Source: Alphaproteobacteria bacterium
Lineage (GTDB): Bacteria; Pseudomonadota; Alphaproteobacteria; UBA9219
Length of the DNA stretch: 14,925 bases
Direction of reading: 5' to 3'
Assembly: GCA_028716765.1 (NCBI GenBank)
Contig: JAQUPC010000051.1
Span: 1 to 14,925 of the forward strand
Shown: positions 232 through 14,925 of the stretch, piece after piece
How positions within the stretch are numbered: position 1 is the stretch's first letter
Layout: each line of letters starts with the position of its first letter
The notes under the pieces: model-generated
What the model saw: the letters and a program-made list of their open reading frames with translations, nothing else
Told to the model about the DNA's origin: nothing
The model's database searches: none
Made by a program: the position numbers and the translations under genes

Positions 232-299
232 GTATTCCTTCTAGAGCGTTCGGGGGCTTGAGGGAATAGGTATTGATGCCCTCCAAAACGACGACTGCC

Positions 300-638: not shown

Positions 639-755
639 AAGAGGTCTCCGGAACGCAAAATGAAAACGCCCATAGTTCTAACAGAGTGTTTATATATGTA
701 TCAAGTGCAGGCAATAGAGGGCAGTAAGCCTGTGCTTGCCGCCTGTACGGTTAAT

Positions 756-770
756 CCGGCACAATGCCGG
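756..770. repeat. Short perfect inverted repeat in the fdxA/exported-protein gap
   Basis: CCGGCA and TGCCGG are separated by CAA. The repeat lies about 45 bp upstream of the ATG at 815, in the gap between divergent genes. It could form a 5'-leader hairpin or be an operator half-site pair, but nothing else in the sequence decides between these, and it may be chance in GC-rich DNA. Confidence 0.3.
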
Positions 771-814
771 GCCGAGACGATTCCTGCCCATTCATCAACT
801 CTGGAGGATTTGCC

Positions 815-1063: not shown

Positions 1064-1093
1064 GCTTTCACCGTCATTTTGAAGGATACGCAC

Positions 1094-2476
1094 ATGAAAC
1101 ACCTGCTATTGCCGCGCGCGCCGCGCCAGGCCGTGCCTATAACGCTTCTGACTGCGAAAACGTATAAGGCTTGGGTAAAGCGTCAACCGCAGCGTGTCGT
1201 AAATTGGCTGAAGACTTTGGGGTATAGCGCGAAGCCCGCGAGTTTTTGCGTTATTCCCGATGTTAAGGGAAAAGCGGCGCGGGTTCTCGCCGTGCTCTCC
1301 GATCCGGCGAGCCTCTGGGATATGGCCGGGCTGCCGTGCGCGTTGCCAAAAGGAGTTTATCGCCTCGAAGGCGATGTGGCGATAGCCGATCAAGAGAAGC
1401 TGGCGTTGGGATGGCTGCTCGGTTCCTATCACTATACGAGGTATAAAGAGAGAGAAGCCGATCCCTCCAAACTTGCCGTCACAGCCAGGATAGACTTCGA
1501 CATGGTTTATCGTATGGCCGAGGCCATCGCTTTTACGCGCGATCTCATCAACACACCTTCGGAAGATATGGGGCCGGCGGAGTTGGCGGCGGCAGCAGCC
1601 GCAGTTGGCAAGATGTACGGTGCAAAAGTAACTCAAATTGCCGGCGACGATCTGCTTAAAAAGAATTATCCCGGCATTCATGCCGTCGGACGTGCCAGTC
1701 CGCGCGCGCCGCGCCTCATCAATCTCACGTGGGGCGATCCTAAACATCCGCATGTCACGTTGGTTGGAAAGGGCGTGTGCTTCGACACAGGCGGACTCGA
1801 TCTCAAACCGAAAAACGCAATGAACCTTATGAAAAAGGACATGGCGGGCGCGGCAATCGCGCTGGGCACAGCGATGATGGTGATGGGAAGAAAGTTGCCC
1901 GTGCGGCTCAGGCTTTTGATCCCGGCCGTGGAAAACATGGTGGCGGCCAATGCGTTTCGTCCCCTGGACGTCATTAAGATGAGGAACGGGCTTACGGTCG
2001 AAATTACCAACACGGACGCCGAAGGCCGCCTGATATTGGCTGAGGCTCTTGCCGAGGCAACGAACGAAAAGCCCGATTTGACCGTGGACTTTTCAACATT
2101 GACCGGGGCGGCGCGCACGGCAGTAGGTACGGAGATTTCGGCCTTTTTCGCCAACGATGACAAATTGGCCGAAGAGCTTTTTGCCGCAGGACAGGAAACG
2201 GAAGATCCACTTTGGCGGCTGCCTCTGGAAGGAACTTACGATTCGATGCTCGACAGCAAAGTGGCCGATTTGAATAATTGTCCGGATTCGCCTTATGCCG
2301 GAGCCATAACGGCTGCGCTCTTTTTGCAACGCTTTTATGGTAAAAATTTGCCCTGGGCGCACCTGGATTTCATGGCGTGGAATCTTGGCAAGAAACCAGG
2401 CCGCCCGGAAGGCGGCGAGGCCATGGGGTTGAGGGCCGTCTATCGGCTGATCGAGAAGCGCGCGCAAACCCGATAA
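1094..2476 (+). CDS. Leucyl aminopeptidase family protein (peptidase family M17)
   Basis: A 460-residue cytosolic two-metal aminopeptidase that removes N-terminal residues from peptides. The C-terminal catalytic domain has every expected ligand at E. coli PepA spacing: K226, D231, K238, D249, D308 and E310, with R312 (PepA K270, D275, K282, D293, D352, E354, R356). The signature N306-T-D-A-E-G-R-L is intact. The N-terminal domain (about 1-145) is shorter and more divergent than in PepA, as in the roughly 460-aa alphaproteobacterial M17 branch. ATG 1094 is preferred because GAAGGA lies 7 bp upstream; a TTG at 1079 would add five residues. An NlpC/P60 peptidase follows after a regulator gene, a pairing common in alphaproteobacteria from memory. 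A role in muropeptide or protein turnover is inferred. Confidence 0.93.
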   Translation: MKHLLLPRAPRQAVPITLLTAKTYKAWVKRQPQRVVNWLKTLGYSAKPASFCVIPDVKGKAARVLAVLSDPASLWDMAGLPCALPKGVYRLEGDVAIADQEKLALGWLLGSYHYTRYKEREADPSKLAVTARIDFDMVYRMAEAIAFTRDLINTPSEDMGPAELAAAAAAVGKMYGAKVTQIAGDDLLKKNYPGIHAVGRASPRAPRLINLTWGDPKHPHVTLVGKGVCFDTGGLDLKPKNAMNLMKKDMAGAAIALGTAMMVMGRKLPVRLRLLIPAVENMVAANAFRPLDVIKMRNGLTVEITNTDAEGRLILAEALAEATNEKPDLTVDFSTLTGAARTAVGTEISAFFANDDKLAEELFAAGQETEDPLWRLPLEGTYDSMLDSKVADLNNCPDSPYAGAITAALFLQRFYGKNLPWAHLDFMAWNLGKKPGRPEGGEAMGLRAVYRLIEKRAQTR

Positions 2477-2502
2477 ATCACGAAAAGAAGTGCGGCGACT
2501 TC

Positions 2503-2525
2503 AACTTCAACAAGAACTTGAAGTT
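2503..2525. repeat. AT-rich hairpin downstream of the M17 peptidase gene
   Basis: The arms AACTTCAA (2503-2510) and TTGAAGTT (2518-2525) are perfect complements around a 7-nt loop, 26 bp after the aminopeptidase stop. The right arm is also part of a second near-palindrome, GAACTTGAAGTTC. There is no T-run after it, so it is a weak candidate for an intrinsic terminator and may instead protect the 3' end. The rest of the 211-bp gap up to 2688 shows only the palindrome at 2649. Confidence 0.35.
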
Positions 2526-2648
2526 CGCGGCGCCGGAAGATTCGGATGAATCGCCTAAGACCGGAATGGCAAGATGGTAAAGAGGGTGAATCACTTTTCG
2601 AAAAATATTCTACGTCTTGCGAATCGTAAACCTCTGACACAGTATCGC

Positions 2649-2662
2649 CATATCTTGATATG
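2649..2662. promoter_or_regulatory. Candidate operator palindrome upstream of the MarR-like gene
   Basis: CATATCTTGATATG is a perfect inverted repeat with 6-bp arms and a 2-bp centre. It lies 25 bp upstream of the GTG start of a winged-helix regulator. MarR-family proteins commonly bind AT-rich palindromes of this kind next to their own genes, so autoregulation is inferred. A TTGACA hexamer begins at 2668 but lies too close to the start codon to be an ordinary -35 for this gene. Confidence 0.45.
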
Positions 2663-2687
2663 AACTTTTGACATAAAGGGCGAACCC

Positions 2688-3125
2688 GTGAGCACTCAGC
2701 TAAAGGCTCTAGAATTGTGGCGGCATAGTTTGGTGGCGAGCGTACGCGGCGATGCACCGGACTTGTCGGCGCGGCAAATGGCGCTTCTTCTTTCTGTATA
2801 TATGGAGGGAGGCCCCCACACCGTAAGGGGTCTTGCCAAGGCCTTGAAGATTTCCAAGCCGGCTATCAGCCGCGCTTTGGATCGTCTCGGCGAACTTAAT
2901 TACGTGCGCCGCGAGCGCGACGAGCTCGACCGCCGTAACGTGCTGGTGCAGCGTACGGGAACGGGAGCGGTCTTTTTGAAGGGCTTTGCCGCGTTGATTG
3001 TCGAGGCGAATGCGATCGTGGAATCGATGCCGATGCGGGAAATCGATTTCGGGGTCGAGGCCGAAACGGCTTCAACGCCCTCCGCCGGTGCCTCCGAAGC
3101 CGTTTGGGCCGAAGCGGCGGCTTGA
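2688..3125 (+). CDS. MarR-like winged-helix transcriptional regulator
   Basis: A 145-residue protein starting at GTG, with AAAGGG about 9 bp upstream. Residues 45-68 form a helix-turn-helix (T-V-R-G-L-A-K-A-L-K-I-S, then S-R-A-L-D-R-L). The wing follows at 72-90 and keeps the D81-R-R basic turn characteristic of MarR proteins. The N-terminal helix and the region after residue 95 would form the dimer interface. The last 25 residues are Ala/Glu-rich and probably disordered. It lies between the M17 and NlpC/P60 peptidase genes and behind a palindrome at 2649. It could therefore regulate itself and the downstream peptidase, but the ligand and targets are unknown. MarR family is the best guess; another small winged-helix family is possible. 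Confidence 0.75.
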   Translation: MSTQLKALELWRHSLVASVRGDAPDLSARQMALLLSVYMEGGPHTVRGLAKALKISKPAISRALDRLGELNYVRRERDELDRRNVLVQRTGTGAVFLKGFAALIVEANAIVESMPMREIDFGVEAETASTPSAGASEAVWAEAAA

Positions 3126-3193
3126 TACGGCCCCTTCGAGTTTCCTGAAAATCGCCGTTTGCAGCACCTAAAAGCACGGGTATAACGTGGCTT

Positions 3194-4069
3194 ATGACCG
3201 ATCCGTCAAAGCTTGATCCCCGCGTGAACGCCTTCCGGCCCGATTTGGCCGACGTTTCCCTGCAAGGCCGGGTGACTGCCAAGCGGTATGTCGAGCCGAA
3301 ACCGCGCCAATGCATTCAAGGCGTGGTGCCCCTGCTGGCCGAGCCGAAAGAAGACGCCCGGCGCGTCAGCGAAATACGCTACGGCGAGTTTCTGGACGTA
3401 TTCGAGGACCGCAAAGACGGTTTTGTCTGGGTTCAGAACCGCAGCGACCGTTATGTGGGTTACCTGCCATCTCCTGAAGTTTTAAATGAATCCATTGCCT
3501 CTCTGTCCAACAGGATCAAGGCCTTGCATACGTTTGTTTATGCCGAGCCTGATCTTAAATCGCCTTTGCTGGATCGGCTGACGCTCGGTTCTTACGTCAG
3601 CGTGATGAGAAAGGCCGGCGGGTTTCTTGAACTCGCGAGCGGCGGATTCGTGTTTGCCGGGCATGTTTTGGCCACCGGGGACATGATAACGCCGGACTAC
3701 GTTTTTACGGCCGGCCGCATGCTGGGCGCGCCGTATCTTTGGGGCGGGCGGACGCCGCTCGGCATCGATTGCTCGGCTCTGGTTCAGCTTGCGCTGGAAA
3801 TGGCGGGAATCGAGGCTCCGCGCGATTGCGACCAGCAGCGCGAAGCTTTCGGCCAGCCGCTGGAGAAAAACTGGCGCGACGTCACGTGGCGGCGCGGCGA
3901 TATCGTATTCTTCGCACCGCCCCACGCGGGTTCGGCGCCTCACGTTGGGATCATGACGAGCCATGATCATCTGATAAACGCCAACGCCACGGTTATGCAG
4001 GTGACCGTCGAGCCGTTGGCGAACGTCGTGACAAGGGGCAACGAGATCGTGGCCAAGGGCAGGCCGTAA
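3194..4069 (+). CDS. NlpC/P60 family peptidase with N-terminal SH3-like domains
   Basis: A 291-residue protein. Residues 30-160 look like two bacterial SH3-like domains (near 38-93 and 107-160), and 165-291 form an NlpC/P60 cysteine peptidase domain. The nucleophile is C193 in G-I-D-C-S-A-L-V-Q, the base is H250 in P-H-V-G-I-M, and the third residue is N262, exactly 12 after the histidine as in E. coli Spr, where it is H131. Family members usually cleave the D-Glu to diamino-acid bond of peptidoglycan stem peptides. No signal peptide is visible, suggesting cytoplasmic muropeptide recycling or non-classical export. The ribosome binding site is weak, but no later start preserves the domains. 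It follows the regulator by 68 bp and may be co-transcribed with it. Confidence 0.9.
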   Translation: MTDPSKLDPRVNAFRPDLADVSLQGRVTAKRYVEPKPRQCIQGVVPLLAEPKEDARRVSEIRYGEFLDVFEDRKDGFVWVQNRSDRYVGYLPSPEVLNESIASLSNRIKALHTFVYAEPDLKSPLLDRLTLGSYVSVMRKAGGFLELASGGFVFAGHVLATGDMITPDYVFTAGRMLGAPYLWGGRTPLGIDCSALVQLALEMAGIEAPRDCDQQREAFGQPLEKNWRDVTWRRGDIVFFAPPHAGSAPHVGIMTSHDHLINANATVMQVTVEPLANVVTRGNEIVAKGRP

Positions 4070-4086
4070 GAGTCATGAATCTTTGC

Positions 4087-4119
4087 GGCCTGAAAATTTG
4101 GCGCAGGCCCGGCATTTTT
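4087..4119 (+). terminator. Candidate intrinsic terminator after the NlpC/P60 gene
   Basis: GGCCTG (4087-4092) pairs with CAGGCC (4104-4109) around an 11-nt loop. A run of five T follows at 4115-4119, five bases after the stem. The position just after the stop at 4069 suits a terminator. The stem is short and the T-run is offset, so it is only a candidate. Confidence 0.4.
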
Positions 4120-4224
4120 GGTTAATAATCGTCGGCAAACGCGCCGAAATGACCGTTTCGCGGGCATGACGAATTGTGTTATTGCTGATCCGAAGGGTTC
4201 GAACTCAAACCGAGGTTCGCAACT

Positions 4225-4782
4225 ATGATTTCAGGGCAAAAGCGCAGGCCGATTATTCACGGATCGCCGCCGTTGCCTTACGAGTTGTCGCTGTCGCCGA
4301 AAAGTTTTTGGGCGGCTTTCGCGTCCACGAAAATCGAAAGCATTGAATGCGCTTATACGCGGAAGAACGGCGTGTCGATAACGCTCGGCTTTCAGGCCGA
4401 CATGGATTCATGGGACAAAAGGAATATCGCCGCGAAGGTTCATAACGATGTTTTCGCCGGCGTCGCCCCTTTTTTCATTTCCCGTGACGGTGCGGCGCAT
4501 AAAAAATGCCAGCATAATACCCTGATCGAAGCAAATCCGGATTCGCTTGTGATTCATCTGGCTGATAGGGTCGATGATAAAACTTTATATGGCATGATGC
4601 GGGAACTGGTTTTTTATGTGGCACAGGCCGGGTTTATTCCTGTGCAGGTCTATAATTGCCTTAGGCTTGATCTTACCGGTTTTTTCGTCGGCATGCGCGG
4701 GCTTGAGGCCGTCCCGATGGCGAATTTGGAAAACAGGCGCAAGGGCCGCAAGGGCGCTATCAAGCCGGGGCTATCCCCGTAA
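4225..4782 (+). CDS. Conserved-looking protein of unknown function
   Basis: A 185-residue protein that I do not recognise. The ATG has GAGG about 9 bp upstream. No signal peptide is visible. Residues 20-160 read like a compact alpha/beta domain, with alternating hydrophobic strands such as G-V-S-I-T-L-G-F and D-S-L-V-I-H-L and a helix near 125-140. The C-terminus (168-180) is strongly basic (ENRRKGRKG) and could touch nucleic acid or a membrane surface, which is inference only. It precedes the exported protein at 4893 by about 110 bp in the same direction, so the two may be expressed together. Codon use resembles that of its neighbours. Confidence 0.7.
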   Translation: MISGQKRRPIIHGSPPLPYELSLSPKSFWAAFASTKIESIECAYTRKNGVSITLGFQADMDSWDKRNIAAKVHNDVFAGVAPFFISRDGAAHKKCQHNTLIEANPDSLVIHLADRVDDKTLYGMMRELVFYVAQAGFIPVQVYNCLRLDLTGFFVGMRGLEAVPMANLENRRKGRKGAIKPGLSP

Positions 4783-4892
4783 AGCGGGCGTTCCGTATGA
4801 TCGATAAAAGGTTTGACGCCCTTGCTTCAGACGTCAAGGCCCGGCATAGTCCAAAGTCCGCGGGAAAGCACGATTCGCAAGAGGTACGGCAG

Positions 4893-6269
4893 ATGAGCGA
4901 GCACATGAATGGGCAGGTCCTAATGCCCGGAACGCGTTGCTTTGGAAAAATTTTCGGGGCTGCATTGTTGAGCTTCAGTCTGGCCATAGCGCCTCTGGCA
5001 GCGCTCGCAGGCGATATGCCGCATGCGGCGGGATCGCCGACGGCGGGCATTACGTTCGACGACCGGCCGCTGCTTCTTCCCGTGCAGCGCAATTTCCAGA
5101 TGGCGATGCTGACCGCCAGCAGCGAGCTGGGCCGCAGCTGCGGCCACATGGAAGCCTATGGCTGGCGCATGGCTCCCAACGAGCAGGACCGCGTCAACCA
5201 GATCTTCAACAACACGATCGACCGGATGCGTGCGCAAGGATTTATGGTCGAGTCGAAATCGCCTACGTCCGTTTCGCGCGACGTAACGATATTTACCGCC
5301 GACCGCCCCGACAAGCATTTGCTCTTTATGTTTTCGGCGGGTGAAATCGGGCTTGCTATGGTGCTGTGCCAAACGTCGGCTCCGATGGCGCCGACTTCGC
5401 GTTCGATCGTAACCTCGACAATGACGCCGCCGCCTTCGCGCGGCATGTCCGGAAGCGGCGGGCCCGGCCTTTACAGCACGGAGGAGCCGTTGCCCCTCAC
5501 GCGCACCGGCAAAAGGGCTATGGACGGTTTTTCCCCTCTCGGCGAGTGGGTCGGCACCTACACCTGCCATCAGGGAACGACCGGCGGCACGCTCTCCATA
5601 AGCAGCTTGCGCGGCGATCAGTTCGAAGGAACGTTCCGCTTCTATCCGACGCCCAAGAACCCCTACGTGGCGACAGGACGCTATAAAGTCTACGGCGAGT
5701 ATGACAGCGAATCCCAGCGCATCCTGATCAATCCGGGAAAATGGCTGGAACGGCCGAAGAGCTATTACAATACGATTATGATGGGAAGCTTCGATCCCGC
5801 GGCCAGGACATTCAGCGGCTTTTTCCAGGGCATCAACGGTTGCACCAGTTTCGAGGCTCACCGCGCCACGGCGGGCGACTTGATTGAAGGCAAGAAACTT
5901 AAAGCCGCGAAGCACGCAAAAAAACCCGTTAAGAAAAAAGCCAGAAAGGCAGCGCCCAGGAAAGTCAAACAAGAAGCCAAGCCGGAAGTTTCGGCGCAAC
6001 CTGTGTTGACTGCTCCGGAAACGCCGACAACGACGGACAAGGCTGTGACCGGAATAAAGCTGGGAACGCAGACGGCTACGCCAACCGCGCCGTCCCCCTT
6101 GCCAACGGCCTCGAAAGACGCGGGCGCCGCTTTTAAGGTGCCTGCGGACGCGGGAAAGTCGATCCTTTTGCCTGCCAAGCCCGTTACCGGAGTGACAGAC
6201 GAAACGAAGAAGCCTGCGCTTGCGCCGACGGCCACGCCTTTGCCAAAGGAATTGGCGCCCGCTAAATGA
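4893..6269 (+). CDS. Exported two-domain protein with Lys/Ala/Pro-rich tail, function unknown
   Basis: With ATG 4893 (GAGGT 7 bp upstream) the product has 458 residues. The frame is open back to an ATG at 4797 that lacks a ribosome binding site, and ATG 4923 is another possible start. A signal peptide core (G-A-A-L-L-S-F-S-L-A-I-A-P-L) is followed by A-A-L-A and likely cleavage before GD. Domain 1 (about 50-165) contains C83 and C159. Domain 2 (about 214-324) begins G-E-W-V-G-T-Y-T-C225 and ends G-C317-T-S-F-E, probably a beta-rich fold closed by C225-C317. From memory this second pattern occurs in uncharacterised alphaproteobacterial proteins. Residues 330-365 are extremely Lys/Ala-rich and the rest is Pro/Ala/Thr linker-like. 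The basic tail could bind an anionic envelope polymer; this is inference. A periplasmic location is likely. Confidence 0.75.
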   Translation: MSEHMNGQVLMPGTRCFGKIFGAALLSFSLAIAPLAALAGDMPHAAGSPTAGITFDDRPLLLPVQRNFQMAMLTASSELGRSCGHMEAYGWRMAPNEQDRVNQIFNNTIDRMRAQGFMVESKSPTSVSRDVTIFTADRPDKHLLFMFSAGEIGLAMVLCQTSAPMAPTSRSIVTSTMTPPPSRGMSGSGGPGLYSTEEPLPLTRTGKRAMDGFSPLGEWVGTYTCHQGTTGGTLSISSLRGDQFEGTFRFYPTPKNPYVATGRYKVYGEYDSESQRILINPGKWLERPKSYYNTIMMGSFDPAARTFSGFFQGINGCTSFEAHRATAGDLIEGKKLKAAKHAKKPVKKKARKAAPRKVKQEAKPEVSAQPVLTAPETPTTTDKAVTGIKLGTQTATPTAPSPLPTASKDAGAAFKVPADAGKSILLPAKPVTGVTDETKKPALAPTATPLPKELAPAK

Positions 6270-6301
6270 CGCTTCGTTTGCGGCTTGCCGTGAGGCCGTG
6301 C

Positions 6302-7465
6302 TTATTTGCGTACGGACTCTTGCAGCACGCCGTCAATCCACACGGCATTTATGCTGAAATCGCGATTCAAAACGGCTAAATCAGCCGCATAGCCGGGCAG
6401 CAGCTTTCCGAAACGGTTGCCGATTCCCAGAAAGGCGGCGGGGGCAGAAGAGGCCATGCGCAGCGCCTCTGCGGGCTCAAGGCCAACGTGTTTTATGGCG
6501 TAACGGACGCATTCCGCCAACGTCAAGGCGCTTCCGGCAAGACGCCCCTCGCTCGTCTGGCAGCGGCCGTCCTTTGCGCTGACCGTTTCGCCATAAAGCC
6601 GGAAAGGCTCCGGGGCGTCCGCGCCTGCGGGCGGCATGGCGTCGCTTACAAGAAACAGCTTTCCTTCCGGTTTGGCGCGATGCGCCAGCCGGATCATTTC
6701 ATCGCTGACATGATGCCCGTCGGCTATGATGCCGCACCAGCTGTCGCGGTCGTCGAGAGCTATCCCCGCGGGGCCGGGGCTGCGTGCGCTCAGCGATCCC
6801 ATGCCGTTGAACAAATGCGTAAAGCCGGTTGCCCCGGCCCTGAGCGCGGCGCGGGCCGCATCCGGCGCCGCGGCGGTGTGCCCAAGCGAGACGATAACGC
6901 CTTGCGCCCGCAGTTGCCGGATTTGCTCCGGCGTCACGCGTTCGGACGCGACGGTAACGAGCATGATTTCGTCAGGTTCGGGCTTGTAAAATTGTAAATC
7001 GTCCGGCTCCATGTCGCGCAGCCGGTCTTCCTTATGCACGCGGCGATGCTCGGCGCTCAAATGCGGCCCTTCAAAATGAATGCCGAGGACGTTGGGGCAG
7101 AGGCGGCGGCCTTCGCGGGCAAGCTTAAGCGCTCGTTCCGTTACGGCCCGGCTGTCGCTGGTGCAGGTGAGGAGCATACGGCTCGTGCCGCGCCGCCCAT
7201 GAGCCCCGGCGATAGCGGCAACGGTCCGGACGTCCGTTGCGGCGTTAAAGAGGAGATTTCCGCCGCCGTTGACCTGACAGTCGATAAACCCCGGTGCGAC
7301 AATGCAATTATCGTAAGCGATCGTTTCGGCTTCCGGGGGTAAACGGCCTTCGGCAACGATATCAAGGACGCGGCCGTCCTGAAGCAGAAGAGCATGCCCC
7401 TCGACAAAGGCCTCGCCCGTAAAAACGAGGGCTCCGGTAAGGGCGGTTAGGGAGGGTTTTGCCAT
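6302..7465 (-). CDS. nagA: N-acetylglucosamine-6-phosphate deacetylase
   Basis: A 387-residue amidohydrolase-superfamily enzyme (E. coli NagA has 382) that converts GlcNAc-6-phosphate to glucosamine-6-phosphate and acetate in the cytoplasm, during amino-sugar use and wall recycling. Metal and substrate residues are visible: E132 in G-I-H-F-E-G-P, H196 in S-L-G-H-T, H217 in T-H-L-F-N-G-M, H251/H252 in D-G-H-H-V, and the catalytic D275 in V-S-D-A-M-P-P. The early I-D-C-Q-V-N-G-G-G segment matches the single-metal type. The strand after E132 reads H-L-S-A-E-H-R-R-V-H, where many relatives have G before the last H. No nagB or sugar transporter lies beside it. It is convergent with the gene at 4893 and divergent from the yfgM-like gene. 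The ribosome binding site is weak. Confidence 0.95.
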   Translation of the reverse strand: MAKPSLTALTGALVFTGEAFVEGHALLLQDGRVLDIVAEGRLPPEAETIAYDNCIVAPGFIDCQVNGGGNLLFNAATDVRTVAAIAGAHGRRGTSRMLLTCTSDSRAVTERALKLAREGRRLCPNVLGIHFEGPHLSAEHRRVHKEDRLRDMEPDDLQFYKPEPDEIMLVTVASERVTPEQIRQLRAQGVIVSLGHTAAAPDAARAALRAGATGFTHLFNGMGSLSARSPGPAGIALDDRDSWCGIIADGHHVSDEMIRLAHRAKPEGKLFLVSDAMPPAGADAPEPFRLYGETVSAKDGRCQTSEGRLAGSALTLAECVRYAIKHVGLEPAEALRMASSAPAAFLGIGNRFGKLLPGYAADLAVLNRDFSINAVWIDGVLQESVRK

Positions 7466-7547
7466 GATATGCCTGATTTCTGCCCTGATTGTTGTGCACC
7501 CTCATCTTGCGCAGCCGCCCACACTTCTTTAAGACCTTAGGAAGCTT

Positions 7548-7583
7548 ATGAACCGTCCGCACAAAGGTGGAATGACACTATGA
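7548..7583 (+). CDS. Possible 11-residue leader ORF overlapping the yfgM-like start
   Basis: ATG 7548 has AGGA about 5 bp upstream and reads MNRPHKGGMTL. It then stops at TGA 7581-7583, which overlaps the ATG (7580-7582) of the next gene as ATGA. This arrangement could couple translation of the downstream gene, whose own ribosome binding site is AGGTGG at about 7565-7570. It could equally be chance. No regulatory residue run, such as a repeated codon, is visible. Confidence 0.25.
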   Translation: MNRPHKGGMTL

Positions 7584-8233
7584 CCGAATCCAGTCTCTTT
7601 CAAGAAATCGACGAAGACCTGCAGCGCCAAAAGCTTGAAGCGATGTGGAAGCGCTACGGCCATTATATCATCGGGGCTGCGCTGGCGATTGTGCTCGCAA
7701 CGGCGCTTTTTAGCGGCTGGCGCTCCTGGCGCACCTATTCGGAACAGAAGGCCACGGCCGGGTTGCTTGGTCTCGTCGAGGGCAAGATCGCCGATAAGGC
7801 CCAGCAAGTCGATAGCCTCGAATCCTTTGCCCGCGTTCACGCGGGAGCCAGCCAAGCCTTTCTGGCGCACCTTCAGGCAGCCTCGATAGCCCTCAAGGAC
7901 GGAAAGACGGACAGGGCCGTAGCCATTTACGACGCTATGGCAAACGACATGACGGTCGAACTTCCCTTCCGTCAATTGGCCGATCTGTTGTCCGTGCAGG
8001 CGCAGCTGGACACCGGGGAACCGGCGGCCTTGCAGGCCCGGCTGCAACCGTTGGAGACGGACAGCCCCTGGCGCGTCACCGCCAAGGAATTTACCGCTTT
8101 GCTCGCCCTTCGCGCCGGAGACAAGGAAAAAGCCAAAACGCTTTACACGGAGCTTTCGAAGGACGCGAGCGCACCACATTCCATGATCCAGCGCGCGACC
8201 GATATGGCGCGCTGGCTGAACGAGGGGTCGTAA
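7580..8233 (+). CDS. YfgM-like tetratricopeptide membrane protein
   Basis: A 217-residue protein with a short cytoplasmic N-terminus (1-27), one membrane helix (about 28-47, H-Y-I-I-G-A-A-L-A-I-V-L) and a periplasmic helical domain with TPR-like pairs, for example near 92-120 and 165-215. This is the architecture of E. coli YfgM, an ancillary SecYEG subunit linked to periplasmic chaperones. Position supports the call: bamB follows after 4 bp and der lies further on, matching the E. coli order yfgM-bamB-der, although hisS is not upstream here. AGGTGG precedes the ATG by 9 bp. The family is assigned from topology and synteny, and sequence identity to YfgM is likely low. Confidence 0.85.
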   Translation: MTESSLFQEIDEDLQRQKLEAMWKRYGHYIIGAALAIVLATALFSGWRSWRTYSEQKATAGLLGLVEGKIADKAQQVDSLESFARVHAGASQAFLAHLQAASIALKDGKTDRAVAIYDAMANDMTVELPFRQLADLLSVQAQLDTGEPAALQARLQPLETDSPWRVTAKEFTALLALRAGDKEKAKTLYTELSKDASAPHSMIQRATDMARWLNEGS

Positions 8234-8237
8234 CCCG

Positions 8238-9584
8238 ATGAAGGCAGGGCGTTTTCACGGAACCAAGTTAGCGGCGGCGCTACTTCTCGTGGCGCTTTCG
8301 GGTTGCCACACCTTATTCGGCAGCGACGATGACGAGGCCGAAAAAACGAAAAACGAAGGCAAACGCGTTGCTATTCTTGAGCTTTCGAAGAAACCGGAAG
8401 CCGACTCGGGAGTGAGCGACGTCAAGTTCACATTGCCGTCCGCCGTAGCCAACAAGGACTGGCCGCAAGCCGGAGGCAACCCCGACCACGCGCCACAAAA
8501 CCTTGCTTTGGCGGAAGATCCCGAAGTGCAGTGGACGGCGAGCATAGGGGACGGCTCCAGCAAGTATTACAAGCTTCTCGCCCGTCCGGTCGTAAGCGGC
8601 GGCAAGGCGTTTACGCTTGATTCCCGCGGTGTTGTGGCGGCTTTCGATGCCGGGGACGGCGACCGTCTGTGGCGTTTTGACACGACCCCGGAAGACCGCA
8701 GCGGCGAGACGATGGGTGGCGGCGTTGGCGTCGAGGGCGACGTGGTCTACGTCACGACGGGTTTTGGCGAGGTTCTGGCGTTGAAGGCCGGGGACGGCGT
8801 GGTGCTGTGGCGCAAGAACGTCGGCAAGCCGTTGCGCGCGGCGCCGACAATCGCCAGCGGCCGGGTATTCGTGGTGACCATCGACAACGAGTTGAAAGCG
8901 CTTTCTCTTAGGAACGGCGAGATTTTATGGCAACATGGCGGTATTACCGAAAGCGCTACGCTTATGGGGGCATCCAACCCGGCGGCGGAGGGCGATAGCG
9001 TCGTCGTCGCCTACAGTTCGGGCGAGATTTTCAGCCTGAGAGCCCAGAACGGGCGCGTTGCCTGGGCGGACGTTTTGGCCGTTCCGGAAAAGGTCGGCGC
9101 GCTGCCGGCGATCGCCGACATCCGCGGGCTTCCGGTTATCGAACACGGCCGCGTTTTTGCCGTAAGCCACAGCGGGCGGATGGCTTCCGTCGATCAGCGC
9201 ACGGGCGACCGGGCTTGGGACGCGGACATAGGCGGCGTCAATACGCCGCTTGTCGCGGGCGATGCCGTTTTTGTTCTCAGCAATAATAGCGAGTTGATCG
9301 CTTTGACGCGCAGCAGCGGACGCATCGTTTGGGTGAAAGAGTTGCAACGCCTGAAAGACCCGGATGATCGCGACTCCACGCCGGTTCTCTGGTGGGGCCC
9401 TGTGCTGGCGGGCGGGCGGCTGTGGCTCACCAATTCGCTCGGCCATCTGGCCGCCTTTTCGCCGGGAGACGGCGCCGAACTCGTGGACCGCGACGTCGGC
9501 AAGGCCTTTTACATGCCGCCCATCGTCGCCGATCACGTCATGTATCTGCTGAGCGACAACGGGCGGCTGATGGCGCTGAAATAA
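8238..9584 (+). CDS. bamB: Outer membrane protein assembly factor BamB (lipoprotein, beta-propeller)
   Basis: A 448-residue lipoprotein. The signal peptide ends in the lipobox L20-S-G-C23, so Cys23 would be lipidated and the protein anchored in the outer membrane facing the periplasm. A short acidic linker (S-D-D-D-E) follows. The rest is a PQQ-type eight-bladed beta-propeller with repeats such as A-F-D-A-G-D-G-D-R-L-W-R, A-L-K-A-G-D-G-V-V-L-W-R and S-L-R-N-G-E-I-L-W-Q. BamB helps the BAM complex insert outer-membrane beta-barrels. Its length exceeds E. coli BamB (392) mainly through the linker and N-terminal extension. It starts 4 bp after the YfgM-like stop, which suggests one operon. Confidence 0.94.
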   Translation: MKAGRFHGTKLAAALLLVALSGCHTLFGSDDDEAEKTKNEGKRVAILELSKKPEADSGVSDVKFTLPSAVANKDWPQAGGNPDHAPQNLALAEDPEVQWTASIGDGSSKYYKLLARPVVSGGKAFTLDSRGVVAAFDAGDGDRLWRFDTTPEDRSGETMGGGVGVEGDVVYVTTGFGEVLALKAGDGVVLWRKNVGKPLRAAPTIASGRVFVVTIDNELKALSLRNGEILWQHGGITESATLMGASNPAAEGDSVVVAYSSGEIFSLRAQNGRVAWADVLAVPEKVGALPAIADIRGLPVIEHGRVFAVSHSGRMASVDQRTGDRAWDADIGGVNTPLVAGDAVFVLSNNSELIALTRSSGRIVWVKELQRLKDPDDRDSTPVLWWGPVLAGGRLWLTNSLGHLAAFSPGDGAELVDRDVGKAFYMPPIVADHVMYLLSDNGRLMALK

Positions 9585-9603
9585 ATAGAGGCTAAATTTA
9601 TTT
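9579..9603. repeat. AT-rich inverted repeat at the bamB stop
   Basis: AAATAAAT (9579-9586) and ATTTATTT (9596-9603) are perfect complements around a 9-nt loop and overlap the bamB stop codon. As RNA this is a weak A/U hairpin without a GC stem, so it is not a convincing terminator. It may act as a 3'-end or spacing element before the next gene. Confidence 0.3.
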
Positions 9604-9673
9604 ACCCATAAAGCGCAGGGATTCGCCGGCTGCAACGTGCAATGACTGTAGTTGTACGTTTAGGGAGGCGAAC

Positions 9674-10072
9674 ATGTCGGCGGTTTCAAGCATTACATCA
9701 TCCACGGTCGCGCAGCAAAGCGCGGCGAGCGCGACAAACACAACGTCGAGCGATCAAACGACAAGCGATACGCCGAGTGCCAAAAAAAGCGGAAGCGCTC
9801 CTTCATCATCGACTTCCTCTTCCTCAAGCAGTTCTTCCAGCAGCAGCTCTGCCCAAGTGAAGAGTGAGACAACGGTCAAGAATGCCGATGGATCGACGAC
9901 AAAGACAACCGTTTACGAAGACGGCACTACGAAAGTTACAACGACCGCGCCAGACCGGACTAAAGCCACCACGTCCTATCAGGATCAGCACCCCCGGAGC
10001 GGTGTGACGGCTGCAAATGACAAGGAAAAACCAGACGAAATGGCGCATACGACCGTTTCCATGACGGTTTAG
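9674..10072 (+). CDS. Serine/threonine-rich low-complexity protein of unknown function
   Basis: A 132-residue protein. GGGAGG lies 5 bp before the ATG, a strong ribosome binding site that supports real translation. Residues 1-60 are almost entirely Ser, Thr, Ala and Gln and include a serine run broken once by Thr (about 45-60). Residues 65-100 contain two copies of a D-G-S/T-T-K-T/V-T unit, with valines alternating with threonines as in a beta-strand-forming repeat. No signal peptide or membrane segment is seen and there is no cysteine. It lies between bamB and der, which are usually adjacent, so it is a lineage-specific insertion in this cluster. I do not recognise a family. The serine tract uses mixed TCN and AGC codons, so it is not a simple trinucleotide repeat. 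Confidence 0.65.
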   Translation: MSAVSSITSSTVAQQSAASATNTTSSDQTTSDTPSAKKSGSAPSSSTSSSSSSSSSSSSAQVKSETTVKNADGSTTKTTVYEDGTTKVTTTAPDRTKATTSYQDQHPRSGVTAANDKEKPDEMAHTTVSMTV

Positions 10073-10098
10073 GCTTTATCGACATTTATGCAAATTGG

Positions 10099-10127
10099 GC
10101 ACAACATGTTGATGGGGTGTGCTTTTT
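10099..10127 (+). terminator. Weak terminator-like hairpin upstream of der
   Basis: GCACA (10099-10103) can pair with TGTGC (10118-10122), followed directly by five T (10123-10127). The 14-nt loop contains most of a competing perfect palindrome, CAACATGTTG (10102-10111). Together they could end the transcript of the serine-rich gene. The same stretch overlaps a promoter-like pair, TTGATG (10109) and TATAGA (10130), with a short 15-bp spacer, so a fresh start for der is also possible. Confidence 0.3.
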
Positions 10128-10180
10128 AGTATAGAACGTGGCTCAAGATTGCGCGGTAAGCCTTTATTTCGGCCACACTA

Positions 10181-11689
10181 ATGACCTTCACCCTCGCCAT
10201 AGCCGGACGTCCGAACGTCGGCAAATCGACCCTGTTCAATCGTCTGATCGGAAAGGCGATGGCGCTCGTCCACGACACGCCGGGCGTCACGCGTGACTGG
10301 CGCGAAGGCGAGGGCGAGCTGTTCGATTTGCGTTTTCGCCTTTACGATACGGCGGGGCTCGAAAACCGCCGTCCGAAAGGCAGCATGGCCGAACGCACGG
10401 CCGCGCGCACGAACGAGGCTCTGGCGAAATGCGACGTCATTTTGCTGATGGTCGATGGCCGCGAAGGCCTGACGAACGACGACAAGACCGTTGCCCGCGA
10501 AATCCGCAAAACCGGGAAGCCGGTCATTCTTCTGGTCAACAAGTGCGAGGCGGATCGTTTGCCGCACGGTTTCGACGAGGCTTCGGCCCTCGGGTTCGAG
10601 AACATCCTTCCCGTTTCCGCCACGCACGGCGAAGGTTTGGCGGAACTCTATGAAGCGTTGTTGCCTTATATGCGCGGCGATATTCCTCCCCCCTCGAGGG
10701 GGAGGTCAGGAGGGGGGGGGGACAGCCTTGCTGAGACTTCCGGTTTTGATCTCCAACTTTCACCCAGGTCGCTCTCCCCCCTCCCTAACCCTCCCCTCAA
10801 GGGGGAGGGAATTCCGTCGCGCCTGCCGTGTGAGAGTGATTCAACCGAAGAGGATTCTGAAGAACCCAAACGTCTTCACCTCGCTATCGTCGGGCGGCCG
10901 AACGCAGGGAAGTCGACGCTTGTAAACCGTTTGATCGGCGAGGAGAGGCTGCTGACGGGTCCGGAGCCTGGACTGACGCGCGACGCCATTCACGTCGAGT
11001 GGGAATACAAGGGCCAGTCTATACGTCTCGTGGACACGGCGGGCCTGCGCCGCCGCGCGCGCATCGAGGAAAAGCTGGAGAAGATGAGCGCGCAGGAAAC
11101 GCTGCGCGCGATCCGGCTTGCGCACGTCGTTGTGCTTGTGCTCGATGCCGAGCAGCCGTTCGACAAACAGGATTACACGATCGCTCAGCATGTCGTGGAA
11201 GAGGGCCGCGCCCTTGTCATTGCCGTCAACAAGTGGGACGCGGTGAAGGAAAAAACCGCCGTCTCGCGTATGATACGGGCGAAGATCGAGGCCTCGCTGG
11301 CGCAAGTGGCGGGCGTTCCTCTGGTGCCGATTTCGGCGCTGAAAGGCGAGGGACTCGACAAGTTGATGCGGGAAATTACGCGCCTTTACGAGGTGTGGAA
11401 CAAGCGCGTGTCGACGGGGCAGCTTAACCGCTGGCTGGAAGGCATGGAGGCCGATCATCCGCCGCCTATCGTTTCAGGACGCCGGGTCAAGCTGCGCTAT
11501 ATGACGCAGGTCAAAAGCCGTCCGCCGACATTCGCGCTTTGGGTGAACAAGCCCGTCGGTCTTCCGGAAAGCTACGTGCGCTTTCTTACCGGCGGCCTTC
11601 GCAAGACGTTCGGACTGGAAGGCGTGCCGATTCGCTGGCTGCTCAAGAAGGGCGAAAATCCTTACGAGGGCAAAAAAACCAAGCGTTAA
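10181..11689 (+). CDS. der: Ribosome-associated GTPase Der (EngA) with in-frame repeat insertion
   Basis: A 502-residue essential GTPase with tandem G domains that acts in 50S ribosome assembly. In G domain 1, the P-loop is G9-R-P-N-V-G-K-S-T17, D56-T-A-G is G3, and N120-K-C-E is G4 with Glu in place of Asp, as I recall from alphaproteobacterial Der. G domain 2 has its P-loop at G238-R-P-N-A-G-K-S-T246, followed by D-T-A-G and N-K-W-D. The C-terminal KH-like domain (about 410-495) contains the usual R-R-V-K-L-R-Y region. The linker is unusual: residues about 169-210 are encoded by a GC-rich palindromic repeat with no Der homology, before the acidic E-E-D-S-E-E linker. Length exceeds the 436-490 of common Der proteins by about that amount. 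No clear Shine-Dalgarno precedes ATG 10181. Confidence 0.95.
   Translation: MTFTLAIAGRPNVGKSTLFNRLIGKAMALVHDTPGVTRDWREGEGELFDLRFRLYDTAGLENRRPKGSMAERTAARTNEALAKCDVILLMVDGREGLTNDDKTVAREIRKTGKPVILLVNKCEADRLPHGFDEASALGFENILPVSATHGEGLAELYEALLPYMRGDIPPPSRGRSGGGGDSLAETSGFDLQLSPRSLSPLPNPPLKGEGIPSRLPCESDSTEEDSEEPKRLHLAIVGRPNAGKSTLVNRLIGEERLLTGPEPGLTRDAIHVEWEYKGQSIRLVDTAGLRRRARIEEKLEKMSAQETLRAIRLAHVVVLVLDAEQPFDKQDYTIAQHVVEEGRALVIAVNKWDAVKEKTAVSRMIRAKIEASLAQVAGVPLVPISALKGEGLDKLMREITRLYEVWNKRVSTGQLNRWLEGMEADHPPPIVSGRRVKLRYMTQVKSRPPTFALWVNKPVGLPESYVRFLTGGLRKTFGLEGVPIRWLLKKGENPYEGKKTKR
10682..10811. repeat. GC-rich palindromic repeat element, copy A, inside der
   Basis: The element starts ATTCC (10682) and ends GGAAT (10811), an inverted pair. 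Hairpin 1 spans 10685-10705 (CCTCCC...GGGAGG centred on CTCGAG). Hairpin 2 spans 10788-10808 (CCCTCCCC, loop TCAAG, GGGGAGGG). Between them, a G-rich stretch (10704-10720) is complementary to a C-rich stretch (10772-10788), so the left half is an imperfect inverted copy of the right half. The core 10685-10810 is 126 nt, exactly 42 codons, and keeps the der frame open. The right half (CCCTAACCCTCCCC-type) resembles GC-rich interspersed repeats I recall from many proteobacterial genomes. Copy B lies at 12179-12297. Exact ends are uncertain. Confidence 0.8.
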
Positions 11690-11730
11690 CCAAAACATTT
11701 TTACGAAACAATTTGAAACATTTGTTGCCG

Positions 11731-11759
11731 TTGATTTTGTGAAATCGCGGCGCTAGATG
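11731..11759 (+). promoter_or_regulatory. Candidate promoter for the orphan gene at 11791
   Basis: TTGATT (11731-11736) and TAGATG (11754-11759) are separated by 17 bp and lie about 32 bp upstream of the ATG. The -35 matches four of six consensus bases and the -10 three of six. Spacing and position are good but the sequence match is modest. There is no GC-rich terminator between der and this point. Confidence 0.3.
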
Positions 11760-11790
11760 AGGGCAACATTTTTTCAAAAAGGAGATTGAT

Positions 11791-12126
11791 ATGTCCTCTG
11801 AAGAACCCAAAACAAAGTACATAACTTTTTGGTATGTTCCCGGCGATAACTCCGAAGCAATCATGCGGCAGTACGCCAAGGTAGACGGTGTGCCGGAGCC
11901 TGTTCTCTACATTGTCGAGACCGAAGGCGAGGATGAGAACCCGGTGAAAAAACCGGAGTCTCTCGGCGGACACCGCTATTTTTCCAGACTGACCCCGCGT
12001 CTTACAGTCGCGGCCGATAGAGTTAAAGAAAGAGGCCCGCGCGAAAATCTGAAAAAAAAGTCTGCACCGTTCCACCCGATGGGGTCAGGTTATACGGCCC
12101 AGACTTTAAGAAAGAACTTTGTTTAA
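11791..12126 (+). CDS. Small protein of unknown function
   Basis: A 111-residue protein. AAGGAG lies 6 bp before the ATG, an almost ideal ribosome binding site, so translation is likely. The first 50 residues look folded (K-Y-I-T-F-W-Y-V-P-G-D and E-P-V-L-Y-I-V-E-T-E, two strand-like segments). The rest is basic and polar, ending Q-T-L-R-K-N-F-V. There is no signal peptide, membrane helix or cysteine. I do not recognise the family. It lies about 100 bp after der and is convergent with purF. Its stop is 12 bp from a 31-bp repeat that copies the purF 3' end, so its downstream flank has been rearranged. Confidence 0.65.
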   Translation: MSSEEPKTKYITFWYVPGDNSEAIMRQYAKVDGVPEPVLYIVETEGEDENPVKKPESLGGHRYFSRLTPRLTVAADRVKERGPRENLKKKSAPFHPMGSGYTAQTLRKNFV

Positions 12127-12138
12127 TATCGCTGCGGC

Positions 12139-12169
12139 TTGGTTTTACTCGCTCGCCCGGGCGAGGAAG
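12139..12169. repeat. 31-bp direct repeat, left copy (duplicate of the purF 3' end)
   Basis: Positions 12139-12169 are identical over all 31 bases to 12338-12368. On the minus strand the copy spells the last seven purF codons (F-L-A-R-A-S-E) plus stop, detached from the gene. It contains the perfect 14-bp palindrome CTCGCCCGGGCGAG. Flanking bases differ on both sides, so the repeat length is exact. Confidence 0.9.
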
Positions 12170-12178
12170 AAAAGTATC

Positions 12179-12297
12179 CCTCTCCCCTTGGGGAGAGGAA
12201 GCAAAAGCTTGGACTTACAACGTAAGTCCTTAGCTTTTGCAGGTGAGGGGTCAACTTTTTACATACCCCGCCCCTTACCCCTCCCCAAGGGGAGGGG
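12179..12297. repeat. GC-rich palindromic repeat element, copy B, between convergent genes
   Basis: Hairpin 1 is CCTCTCCCC/GGGGAGAGG (12179-12187/12190-12198). Hairpin 2 is CCCCTCCCC/GGGGAGGGG (12278-12286/12289-12297). Between them, GGGGT (12247-12251) can pair with ACCCC across a T-rich loop, so the order hairpin, G-rich, loop, C-rich TTACC, hairpin is the same as in copy A inside der. A separate 40-bp hairpin is embedded after hairpin 1. The element lies between the orphan gene and purF, which converge. No arm is followed by a good U-tract on either strand, so a REP-like role in stopping exonucleases or polymerase would be inference. Confidence 0.8.
12201..12240. repeat. Nested 40-bp hairpin within repeat copy B
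   Basis: GCAAAAGCT (12201-12209) pairs with AGCTTTTGC (12232-12240), and GGACTTAC (12211-12218) with GTAAGTCC (12222-12229). They are separated by a small 1x2 interior loop and close on a 3-nt loop AAC. That is 17 base pairs in 40 nt, of lower GC than the surrounding element, and copy A has no counterpart at this point. It therefore looks like a separate palindromic insertion inside the larger repeat. Confidence 0.8.
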
Positions 12298-12337
12298 GAC
12301 TCGACAGTTCTTGATGAAAAATCAGTTCTACGGATTG

Positions 12338-12368
12338 TTGGTTTTACTCGCTCGCCCGGGCGAGGAAG
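12338..12368. repeat. 31-bp direct repeat, right copy (within the purF 3' end)
   Basis: This is the in-gene copy of the repeat at 12139-12169. It includes the final codons and stop of purF and the palindrome CTCGCCCGGGCGAG. The two copies start 199 bp apart, with 168 bp including palindromic copy B between them. Confidence 0.9.
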
Positions 12369-13804
12369 GACAATTCGCCCTGCATGGCGTTGTCGTCGAA
12401 GTCGGTCAGCTTGATGGGGTATTCGCCGCTGAAGCAGGCGTCGCAGTATTGCGGCAGGCCGCCGTTGCGCTTCGCTTCGCCCAGCGCGCGGTAGAGCCCG
12501 TCGAGCGAGATAAAGGCGAGGCTGTCCACGCCGATGAAGCGCGCCATTTTCTCCACCGTGTATTGGTGCGCCAAAAGCTTTTCCTTCTCCGGCGTGTCGA
12601 TGCCGTAAAAGCAGCTGAACTTCGTCGGCGGGCTTGAGATGCGCAAGTGCACTTCGCGCGCGCCCGCGTTGCGTATCATCTCCACGATCTTGACGCTGGT
12701 CGTGCCGCGGACGATGGAATCGTCGATCAACACGACGCGTTTGCCGTCGATAAAGCTGCGGTTGGCGTTGTGCTTCAGCTTCACGCCCAAATGACGGATG
12801 CGGTCGGTCGGCTGGATGAACGTCCGGCCGACGTAATGGTTGCGTATGATGCCGAGATCGAACGGAATGCCGCTTTGCTGGGCGAAGCCGATAGCGGCCG
12901 GAACGCCAGAATCCGGAACGGGCACGACGATGTCGGCCATTACCGGCGATTCCTTCGCCAGTTCGACGCCGATGTGCTTGCGCGCCTCGTAAACCGAATG
13001 GCCTTCCACGAGGGAGTCGGGCCGCGCGAAATAAATGTATTCGAAAATGCAGAACTTGCGCGGCGTGGATTCAAACGGCTTGAAGCTTTGAATCGTAGTG
13101 CCGTCCAGAACGACCAGTTCGCCCGGCTCAACGTCGCGCTCGAACGTCGCGCCGATGATGTCGAGCGCGCAGGTTTCGCTCGCCAGCACCCAGGACTCGC
13201 CGAAACGGCCGAGAACCAATGGCCGCACCCCGTAAGGATCGCGGACGCCCATGATGAGGCCCTGCGCCATCGCGATCAGCGAATAAGCGCCTTCCACTTG
13301 CTTCAACGCTTCGATAAAGCGGTCGACGACGGTGCCTTTGTGCTCCATCGCCATGAGGTGGATGATGACTTCGGTATCCGTCGTGGAGCGGAACAGGCAC
13401 CCGCGGCTCACCAAAGCTTTGCGCAGGGTATAGGCGTTGGTGAGGTTGCCGTTGTGGGCGAGGGCGAAGCCGCCCAAGTCGAAATCGGCGAACAGCGGCT
13501 GGACATTGCGCAGCGCCGTTTCGCCCGTCGTGGCATAGCGCACGTGCCCCACGGCCGCCGTGCCGGGCAAGCGTTTGATGATGGTTTCGTTGCCGAAGTT
13601 TTCGGCGATCAGGCCCATTGTGTGATGCGCGCGGAAATGATCGCCGTCAAAGCTGACGATGCCGCCCGCTTCCTGTCCGCGATGCTGGAGCGCGTGAAGG
13701 CCGAGGGCGGTCAAGGCCGCGGCCGAGTCGTTGTTGATGATGCCGAATACGCCACATTCCTCGCGCAGTTTGTCGTCGTCGAAAGGATTTGTGGTGAGGG
13801 TCAT
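12344..13804 (-). CDS. purF: Amidophosphoribosyltransferase
   Basis: A 486-residue enzyme of the first committed step of purine synthesis: PRPP plus glutamine gives phosphoribosylamine, glutamate and PPi. It is the B. subtilis type. A 16-residue propeptide would be removed to expose the N-terminal nucleophile C17 (E-E-C-G-V-F-G-I), and the four 4Fe-4S cysteines are present: C252, C398, C454 and C457. Subtracting the propeptide gives 236, 382, 438 and 441, almost the B. subtilis positions. The glutaminase domain spans about 17-250 and the phosphoribosyltransferase domain about 270-460, with the PRPP loop V-V-L-I-D-D-S-I-V-R-G-T-T-S. It overlaps cvpA by 4 bp (ATGA), implying translational coupling. 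Its last codons are duplicated downstream at 12139. Confidence 0.97.
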   Translation of the reverse strand: MTLTTNPFDDDKLREECGVFGIINNDSAAALTALGLHALQHRGQEAGGIVSFDGDHFRAHHTMGLIAENFGNETIIKRLPGTAAVGHVRYATTGETALRNVQPLFADFDLGGFALAHNGNLTNAYTLRKALVSRGCLFRSTTDTEVIIHLMAMEHKGTVVDRFIEALKQVEGAYSLIAMAQGLIMGVRDPYGVRPLVLGRFGESWVLASETCALDIIGATFERDVEPGELVVLDGTTIQSFKPFESTPRKFCIFEYIYFARPDSLVEGHSVYEARKHIGVELAKESPVMADIVVPVPDSGVPAAIGFAQQSGIPFDLGIIRNHYVGRTFIQPTDRIRHLGVKLKHNANRSFIDGKRVVLIDDSIVRGTTSVKIVEMIRNAGAREVHLRISSPPTKFSCFYGIDTPEKEKLLAHQYTVEKMARFIGVDSLAFISLDGLYRALGEAKRNGGLPQYCDACFSGEYPIKLTDFDDNAMQGELSFLARASE

Positions 13805-14484
13805 TGTTTTTCGCTTTTCGAGTTGGTCAAGTCGTCCATGACATTGCGCAGTTTGTCGTCGTAGGAGGAATCTTTCCGGCCCTTTTTCCCGGCGGAAGGG
13901 ACGGGAGTCGACATTTCATCCAGACGTTCGGCGTCTTCCAGAGCCTTTGTGGCTGTTTCGCGGTTCTTTTCAAGTTCTTCGGCGGCTTCTTCGCGTTCGT
14001 CCTTGGGCACAAAACTCTTCAACATGTCGGCGCCGTCCGCCAAAAGGGGCTTTGTCTTCGCCTCGGCAAGCCAGACCGGCTGTTCATCCGCCTTCGGCCA
14101 GACAAACGTCAGGCAGAGGTAGATCAGGCTCAGAACCAGAAGCCCGCGCAACAGACCGAAAACGAACCCCAGCGAACGATCGATGGAAGTCATCGTCGGC
14201 CCCTTGATCATGCCCGTCAGCAGGCTGCCGGTGGAAATCAAAACCAGAAGCGACAGGCCAAACAGGGCAAGCGCCGCGATGGCGCTTCCTGCCAGCTCGT
14301 TCTTTATATGGTGACTCATGACCCAGGGTTTCAAGGCTTGATAGTACGTCGCCGCGATAATCGACGCGCCGATCCATGTGCCGAGCGAAAAAATTTCTTT
14401 TATAAACCCGCGCCGGAACGCGAAAACCCCTGACGCCAGGAGAAGGCCTGCCACGCCAAGGTCAAAAGTGTTAATGGATCCCAT
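13801..14484 (-). CDS. cvpA: CvpA family inner-membrane protein
   Basis: A 227-residue membrane protein. Four hydrophobic segments lie near residues 6-22, 30-48, 65-90 and 103-128, with the family's early R-R-G-F-I-K-E motif at 24-30. The C-terminal 95 residues are highly charged and probably cytoplasmic and helical (E-E-A-A-E-E-L-E-K-N-R-E), longer than E. coli CvpA (162 aa). E. coli CvpA is needed for colicin V production and lies directly before purF, the same arrangement as here. Its stop overlaps the purF start by 4 bp. GAGG lies 4-5 bp before the ATG. Its molecular role is not settled even in model species. Confidence 0.93.
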   Translation of the reverse strand: MGSINTFDLGVAGLLLASGVFAFRRGFIKEIFSLGTWIGASIIAATYYQALKPWVMSHHIKNELAGSAIAALALFGLSLLVLISTGSLLTGMIKGPTMTSIDRSLGFVFGLLRGLLVLSLIYLCLTFVWPKADEQPVWLAEAKTKPLLADGADMLKSFVPKDEREEAAEELEKNRETATKALEDAERLDEMSTPVPSAGKKGRKDSSYDDKLRNVMDDLTNSKSEKQ

Positions 14485-14543
14485 CGTTCCTCACGCGAAA
14501 AACAGGGTCTGTTTAGCACAGATCACAGCAATGTGTAGGTTTT

Positions 14544-14570
14544 CTTGAAGATTTCAAGCGTAAATCTTCA
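14544..14570 (-). repeat. Overlapping alternative hairpins between radA and cvpA
   Basis: TGAAGATTT (14546-14554) and AAATCTTCA (14562-14570) are perfect 9-bp arms around a 7-nt loop, including the radA stop codon. CTTGAA (14544-14549) and TTCAAG (14553-14558) form a second, mutually exclusive stem. In the transcript running radA to cvpA the hairpin is followed by AAGAAAACC rather than a U-run, so it is not a standard terminator. Confidence 0.4.
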
Positions 14571-14925
14571 GGCCCGTTTTACCTTCGGGGACGTTTGAAA
14601 TAGCGGCAAAAGTTCGCTTAGACGGCTGATTTCAATGCGCCGGATGGCCGTTTCCGTTGCCTGTTTTGGGGAGCGGTCGGCTTTCGGCAAGATAGCCTTT
14701 GCAAAGCCAAGTTTCGCGGCTTCCTTGAGCCTCATTTCGGGCTGGGCGACTCGCCGCACTTCGCCCGAAAGGCCGATTTCGCCGAAAACGACGGCTTCGG
14801 AAGGCACCGGGATTCCTGTCAGCGAGGAGAGCAGGGCGGCGGCGACGGCCAGATCGGCCGCAGGTTCAGTTATCCGCAAACCGCCCGCGACGTTCAGGTA
14901 GACGTCGTTGTTGCCGATGGTGACG
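14568..14925 (-). CDS. radA: DNA repair protein RadA, C-terminal part (gene runs off the right edge)
   Basis: The frame is open from the window edge (first full codon 14922-14924) to TGA 14568-14570, giving 118 residues. An ATG at 14879 lies inside the gene and is not its start. The segment D-V-Y-L-N-V-A-G-G-L-R-I, then E-P-A-A-D-L-A-V-A-A-A-L-L-S-S, is the hallmark of the Lon-like C-terminal domain of RadA (Sms), a RecA-like ATPase that promotes branch migration in recombination. The zinc finger and Walker motifs lie outside the window. Its stop is 83 bp before cvpA on the same strand. The radA-cvpA-purF order is familiar in alphaproteobacteria, so read-through into cvpA is plausible. Confidence 0.93.
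   Translation of the reverse strand, partial: VTIGNNDVYLNVAGGLRITEPAADLAVAAALLSSLTGIPVPSEAVVFGEIGLSGEVRRVAQPEMRLKEAAKLGFAKAILPKADRSPKQATETAIRRIEISRLSELLPLFQTSPKVKRA

Follow-up and report, generated by a model that had tools for sequence, protein, structure and literature searches.

A two-hairpin palindromic repeat lies in frame in the interdomain linker of an alphaproteobacterial Der and very probably belongs to a repeat family that is multi-copy in its order

The DNA analysed here (the window) is a stretch of 14,925 nucleotides from an alphaproteobacterium (GenBank assembly GCA_028716765.1, contig JAQUPC010000051.1, positions 1 to 14,925). It includes der, a gene whose essentiality is established for model bacteria. 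A palindromic element is present within der, and a second two-hairpin element is found further downstream. The features are as follows.

10181..11689, plus strand: der (engA) open reading frame (ORF), 502 amino acids, with two G domains and a KH-like domain
10682..10812, no strand assigned: two-hairpin REP-like dimer (the Der element), in frame, residues 168-211; its ends, accurate to within a few nucleotides, were set from copies in the related genomes G397 and G403
10685..10705, no strand assigned: hairpin 1 of the Der element
10712..10721, plus strand: ten-G run inside the Der element
10790..10808, no strand assigned: hairpin 2 of the Der element, preceded by a CCCTAACC box
12177..12299, no strand assigned: diverged two-hairpin element (copy B), in the gap between a 111-residue ORF and purF

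We found both P-loops and the NKCE and NKWD motifs in the window Der, and Pfam matches to the G domain, the second G domain and the KH domain flank the insert. The reading frame is open across the whole insert. Since the alignment with Der from E. coli breaks off at query residue 170 and picks up again at 220, the insert corresponds to the interdomain linker. A preliminary description made from the letters alone had already placed an in-frame palindromic element free of stop codons between the two G domains, and this was confirmed. The extent that it gave, a core of 126 nt adding residues 169-210, had to be enlarged slightly, to about 131 nt, once other copies were compared. It had also called the element mirror-structured. 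The symmetry is in fact inverted, the two halves being inverted repeats with 33-nt arms that are 73% complementary. Two ORFs neighbour the gene, one Ser/Thr-rich and of 132 residues just 5' of der (9674-10072), the other of 111 residues between der and purF (11791-12126); neither had a match in the der stretch of G397 at an E value of 1e-5 (tblastn for the former).

When nucleotides 10676-10820 were folded as RNA, the predicted energy was -82.7 kcal/mol; 200 shuffles averaged -65.2 (z -4.3) and none of them equalled it, in agreement with the earlier expectation that the element would fold in the mRNA between the two domains. A chance palindrome was rejected: the fold beats the shuffles, and dispersed copies share the hairpins, boxes and ends. 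A fold score alone is no proof of a repeat, since one repeat-free Der linker of the order (L082, one of 26) also reaches z -3.1. Rfam gave 19 matches on the window at E ≤1, 17 of them microRNA families, all under the gathering scores, and we regard them as hairpin or low-complexity matches. An AlphaFold2 model of the window Der, built on an alignment of 46 sequences, had a mean pLDDT of 79, with values below 50 at residues 26-37, 261-266 and 169-227. The last segment is the linker with the insert; it is predicted to be disordered, which suggests a linker that tolerates the addition.

We then compared der in relatives. A search of residues 166-214 against 5.8 billion proteins matched, among 65 candidates, only the window Der itself, and a conserved linker peptide was thus rejected. 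The nearest homologues are 75% identical (BLASTP) and have quite different linkers. In the closest relative genome compared, G397, Der is 71-74% identical (71% by tblastn, 74% in the search) and the gene order nagA, TPR gene, bamB, der, purF, cvpA, radA is the same as in the window; no hairpin was detected in the 16-kb stretch around its der. At the DNA level, neither hairpin pattern occurred in any of 26 der linkers from the order or 25 from a class-wide list (3 loci are in both), the motif rule that delimits the linker having failed for 4 of 30 and 9 of 34 loci, respectively. The proposed comparison with close relatives therefore bore out the preliminary description, as this linker is missing from the sampled Der proteins. 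No second instance of the exact element turned up, and within the window it is the only representative of its type.

A single contig shows the der insert, and high-copy repeats provoke misjoins. Its ten-G run (10712-10721) is an error-prone homopolymer in a conserved gene, and as the run lies within the insert, the frame of Der depends on its length having been read correctly; a change in length would abolish the frame. A repeat copy misjoined into der, or a true run length that breaks the frame, is nevertheless very improbable, because der continues on both sides, in frame and in a conserved gene order, and because in-frame insertions of the family also occur in genes of other genomes.

Repeats of this kind proved abundant in the order. 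The pattern CCCTCCCC-N(2-6)-GGGGAGGG was present in 18 of 33 genomes, with 43 places in G397 and 57 in G403, whereas the reversed control pattern gave none in all 33; these counts refer to genomes of relatives, not to the source genome. With a looser pattern, the stretches fetched from G397 contained 65 hairpins in 35 clusters, 18 of which had two or more. The dimers of G397 fall into two main types with common ends and TTAG/CTAA boxes, and the Der element shares these ends and boxes, its left end resembling one type and its right end the other. The right end is identical to a G403 dimer at 44 of 47 positions, counted on the alignment. Membership in a repeat family, as claimed at the outset, is thereby supported: similar palindromes are dispersed in great number in related genomes, and just three positions separate the right 47 nt from the G403 copy. 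A linker common to relatives that had no similar DNA repeats would have spoken against this; we found the linker to be absent and the repeats abundant. The low-complexity peptide and the G and C runs might suggest a palindrome grown in place by slippage, belonging to no repeat family. We give this next to no weight, as it is already contradicted by the agreement of both hairpins, the boxes and the ends with dispersed copies.

In the broad sense these are REP-like repeats, stem-loops in many copies per genome in the relatives, and inverted pairing is seen both in the Der element and in the multi-hairpin clusters frequent in G397. Next to the stem, family copies have GGTTAGG, GGTTGGG or CTAGG, and the left half of the Der element has GGTCAGG; an unpaired GTAG tag at one end, typical of the GTAG superfamily, was not seen in them. 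Kinship with that superfamily may exist, as the published definition admits degenerate tags (PMC3733652, in the portion available). No hairpin of the CGTC pattern (CGTC tag, CATTCC-type stem) is present in the window, and CGTC-type repeats form a separate family in the order (17 of 33 genomes). We did not find a RAYT gene flanked by REPs: Y1_Tnp matched in 8 of 33 genomes, and of 12 loci inspected 11 lacked hairpins altogether, and at the remaining one (L170) there was one loose hairpin. The two Y1_Tnp genes of G397 had no repeat in the fetched stretches, and G403 had no Y1_Tnp match, drafts being liable to miss a gene.

Copy B has the same two-hairpin layout as the Der element, with a diverged sequence, and it folds strongly in its own right (z -8.4). 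Its local alignment score against the Der element was 36, compared with 32 for the best of 500 mononucleotide shuffles and up to 34 for unrelated stretches of the window, which by itself is weak evidence. The relative announced earlier at 12179-12297 thus stands as regards layout; judged by sequence, copy B is only a distant relative, a diverged subtype. On each side of copy B lies one unit of a perfect direct repeat of 31 nt with a CTCGCCCGGGCGAG palindrome in it (12139-12169 and 12338-12368), the second unit spanning the 3' end and stop codon of purF. Either a long target duplication or a duplicated terminator could explain this repeat.

In order to see where family copies lie in genes, we retrieved the DNA of each of the 43 strict places of G397, 26 loci in total. 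Ten of the 35 clusters were in frame within recognised genes: pheT, birA, an oligopeptide-type ABC transporter gene, prmC (two dimers), truB, waaA (three dimers), ileS, an addA-like helicase gene, valS and recG. For waaA, Pfam backs the left flank only, and the right flank is our own reading; this waaA-like ORF (L149:5463-7262, minus strand) carries its three dimers in a row, about 150 extra residues. Two distinct repeat families have contributed in-frame inserts to the addA-like gene (L152:14-3715). From G403, 50 of the 57 places were fetched, yielding 35 clusters of the Der-family type. The copies in mnmE, recG and queA keep the frame, and domain matches either lie on each side of them or run across; for a glycosyltransferase gene and a PMT-like gene, Pfam supports one flank only. 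These counts exclude unrecognised long ORFs spanning a repeat and ORFs merely upstream of a gene (for example before an rsuA-like gene and flgI). Alignments with solved structures placed extra sequence at the insert in PrmC, IleS and RecG of G397 and MnmE of G403. The truB insert is confined to G397: truB was matched in 31 of 33 genomes, and in 29 others both flanks lie within about 31 nt of each other. On average, 28 dimers were open in 1.79 of six frames against 1.33 for shuffles, a mild excess among related copies.

Some linkers appear to have been hit more than once. The RecG inserts of G397 and G403 are at the same place and may be of shared descent. In MnmE, G403 has a dimer, and G406 has one hairpin in a comparable position following NKAD; the motif rule for this protein was readable in only 7 of 30 loci. 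For PrmC there were 30 loci, one per genome, with flanking motifs in 27. Its interdomain segment has 30-38 residues in 19 of these and 48-115 in the other eight. Seven of the eight long segments look repeat-derived, from several palindrome types: CCC-type in G397 (two dimers) and G400 (half a dimer), CGTC-type in G402 (a complete dimer), with CGTC-like hairpins in G416 and G395, an inverted repeat starting CGTCATTGCGAG in G412 and another repeat type in G391. The script patterns matched only G397 and G400, and the other assignments were made by reading the DNA. Five of the eight long segments and none of the 19 short ones reached a fold z of -2.8 or below; those of G400, G416 and G405 fold no better than shuffles. 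The long segment of G405 (L227) contains no recognised repeat and has an ordinary fold.

For Der, the linker peptides of 120 listed homologues, from 7998 scored, were compared with libraries of translated repeats, at the protein level only. With the CGTC library four linkers scored at least 40, against none with the reversed-DNA control (top 39). With the CCC library seven scored at least 40 and four at least 45; as the control gave five and four (top 49), only the top three scores are meaningful. Shuffles were run for linkers scoring at least 36 among 15 chosen proteins. Seven of the 120 exceeded both the top control and all 200 shuffles: P0001, P0004 and P0013 with the CCC library, and P0003, P0012, P0055 and P0065 with the CGTC library. 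P0065 passes but is weak by eye and was left off the tree labels; P0002 is CGTC-like by eye and failed the test. The linker of P0012 holds ten residues, MDPRLRGDDA, that are identical in the CGTC-type insert of the addA-like gene of G397. P0006 (506 amino acids) has a long, unusual linker that neither library matched at 40 or above. A tree made by a quick method from 80 of the 120, with many weak forks, gave six changes for six labelled rows, but its strongly supported branches alone are compatible with one origin per repeat type. These peptide matches suggest that der itself has probably been invaded repeatedly.

Taken together, the insert in Der is very probably an inserted REP-like dimer of a multi-copy family spread through the order, surviving in a tolerant linker and likely near-neutral. 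A copy from elsewhere would have entered der through some agent, rather than growing in place, and selection would then have left those copies that keep the frame in tolerant sites. Insertion would be ongoing in the order, with in-frame copies retained in such linkers. The survival of the Der insert would be due to the GC-rich, stop-poor composition of the element, to its preservation of the frame and to its arrival in a flexible linker between domains, where some 44 added residues should still allow each G domain to fold. For the protein, near-neutrality is most likely, and the description of the element as exapted as protein finds no backing, as nothing points to the added peptide being constrained or used. 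The same filter would account for the in-frame copies in other genes and for the unrelated palindromes in the PrmC linker.

One could also suppose that the peptide or the mRNA hairpin was recruited because it helps, for instance by slowing translation between domains. A strong RNA fold precisely at the junction of two domains, the repeated hits on interdomain linkers such as that of PrmC, and different families at one site, which could mean a favoured position, are consistent with this. We consider it improbable, since the peptide is not conserved, most relatives do without inserts (none of 26 in der; short segments in 19 of 27 in PrmC), and tolerance explains the placement equally well. A bolder proposal, that the linkers of Der, PrmC, MnmE and RecG are hot spots which unrelated palindrome families keep invading, as modules of a disordered spacer and a translation-slowing hairpin, is doubtful, if a little less so. 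Survival of tolerated insertions remains our preferred explanation. The wider interest lies in the way the same linkers are used again and again within one order. PrmC offers a natural series, one segment that is short in 19 of 27 genomes and long in the other eight, with at least seven long ones apparently filled by palindromes of differing types, and makes it testable how selfish repeats turn into protein, whether tolerated or shaping translation or domain spacing.

Among the literature matches listed, which left most subscription journals outside their scope, there was no report of a repeat in der. The paired inverted hairpins of the Der element recall REPINs, whose dispersed unit consists of two inverted hairpins and a spacer and is associated with RAYT transposases, whereas no REP-flanked RAYT was found here. 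In-gene REPs as such are already in print, and the Der dimer adds to a known phenomenon. As far as the available text of Di Nocera 2013 (PMC3733652) goes, they were reported in many species, with tolerance in linkers proposed; the GTAG/CGTC REPs are short, often dimeric, high in copy number and mainly intergenic, with some in frame, in genes that include tRNA pseudouridine synthase B and repair genes, and recB has insertions at one site in two Xanthomonas species. Another source, in the part available, says that REPs seldom overlap coding regions (PMC12306157). The Der family resembles the GTAG/CGTC REPs in its short palindromes, dimers, high copy number and in-frame cases. It differs in its tag, which is GGTTAGG (GGTCAGG in the left half of the Der element) and not a strict GTAG or CGTC; the available portion of PMC3733652 makes no mention of der, and here several palindrome types occupy the PrmC linker within one order. 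Finally, the Rickettsia palindromic elements, whose in-frame fusions are reviewed in PMC10969869, are likewise palindromes in frame in unrelated protein genes (also PMC3733652, both as available in part). The comparison with them drawn in the preliminary description was apt, as Der and the genes of G397 and G403 show just such in-frame insertion. Those elements belong to another lineage, and the likeness drawn here concerns in-frame insertion. Protein-coding palindromes are thus extended from Rickettsia and other reported REP-rich genomes to a little-described alphaproteobacterial order.
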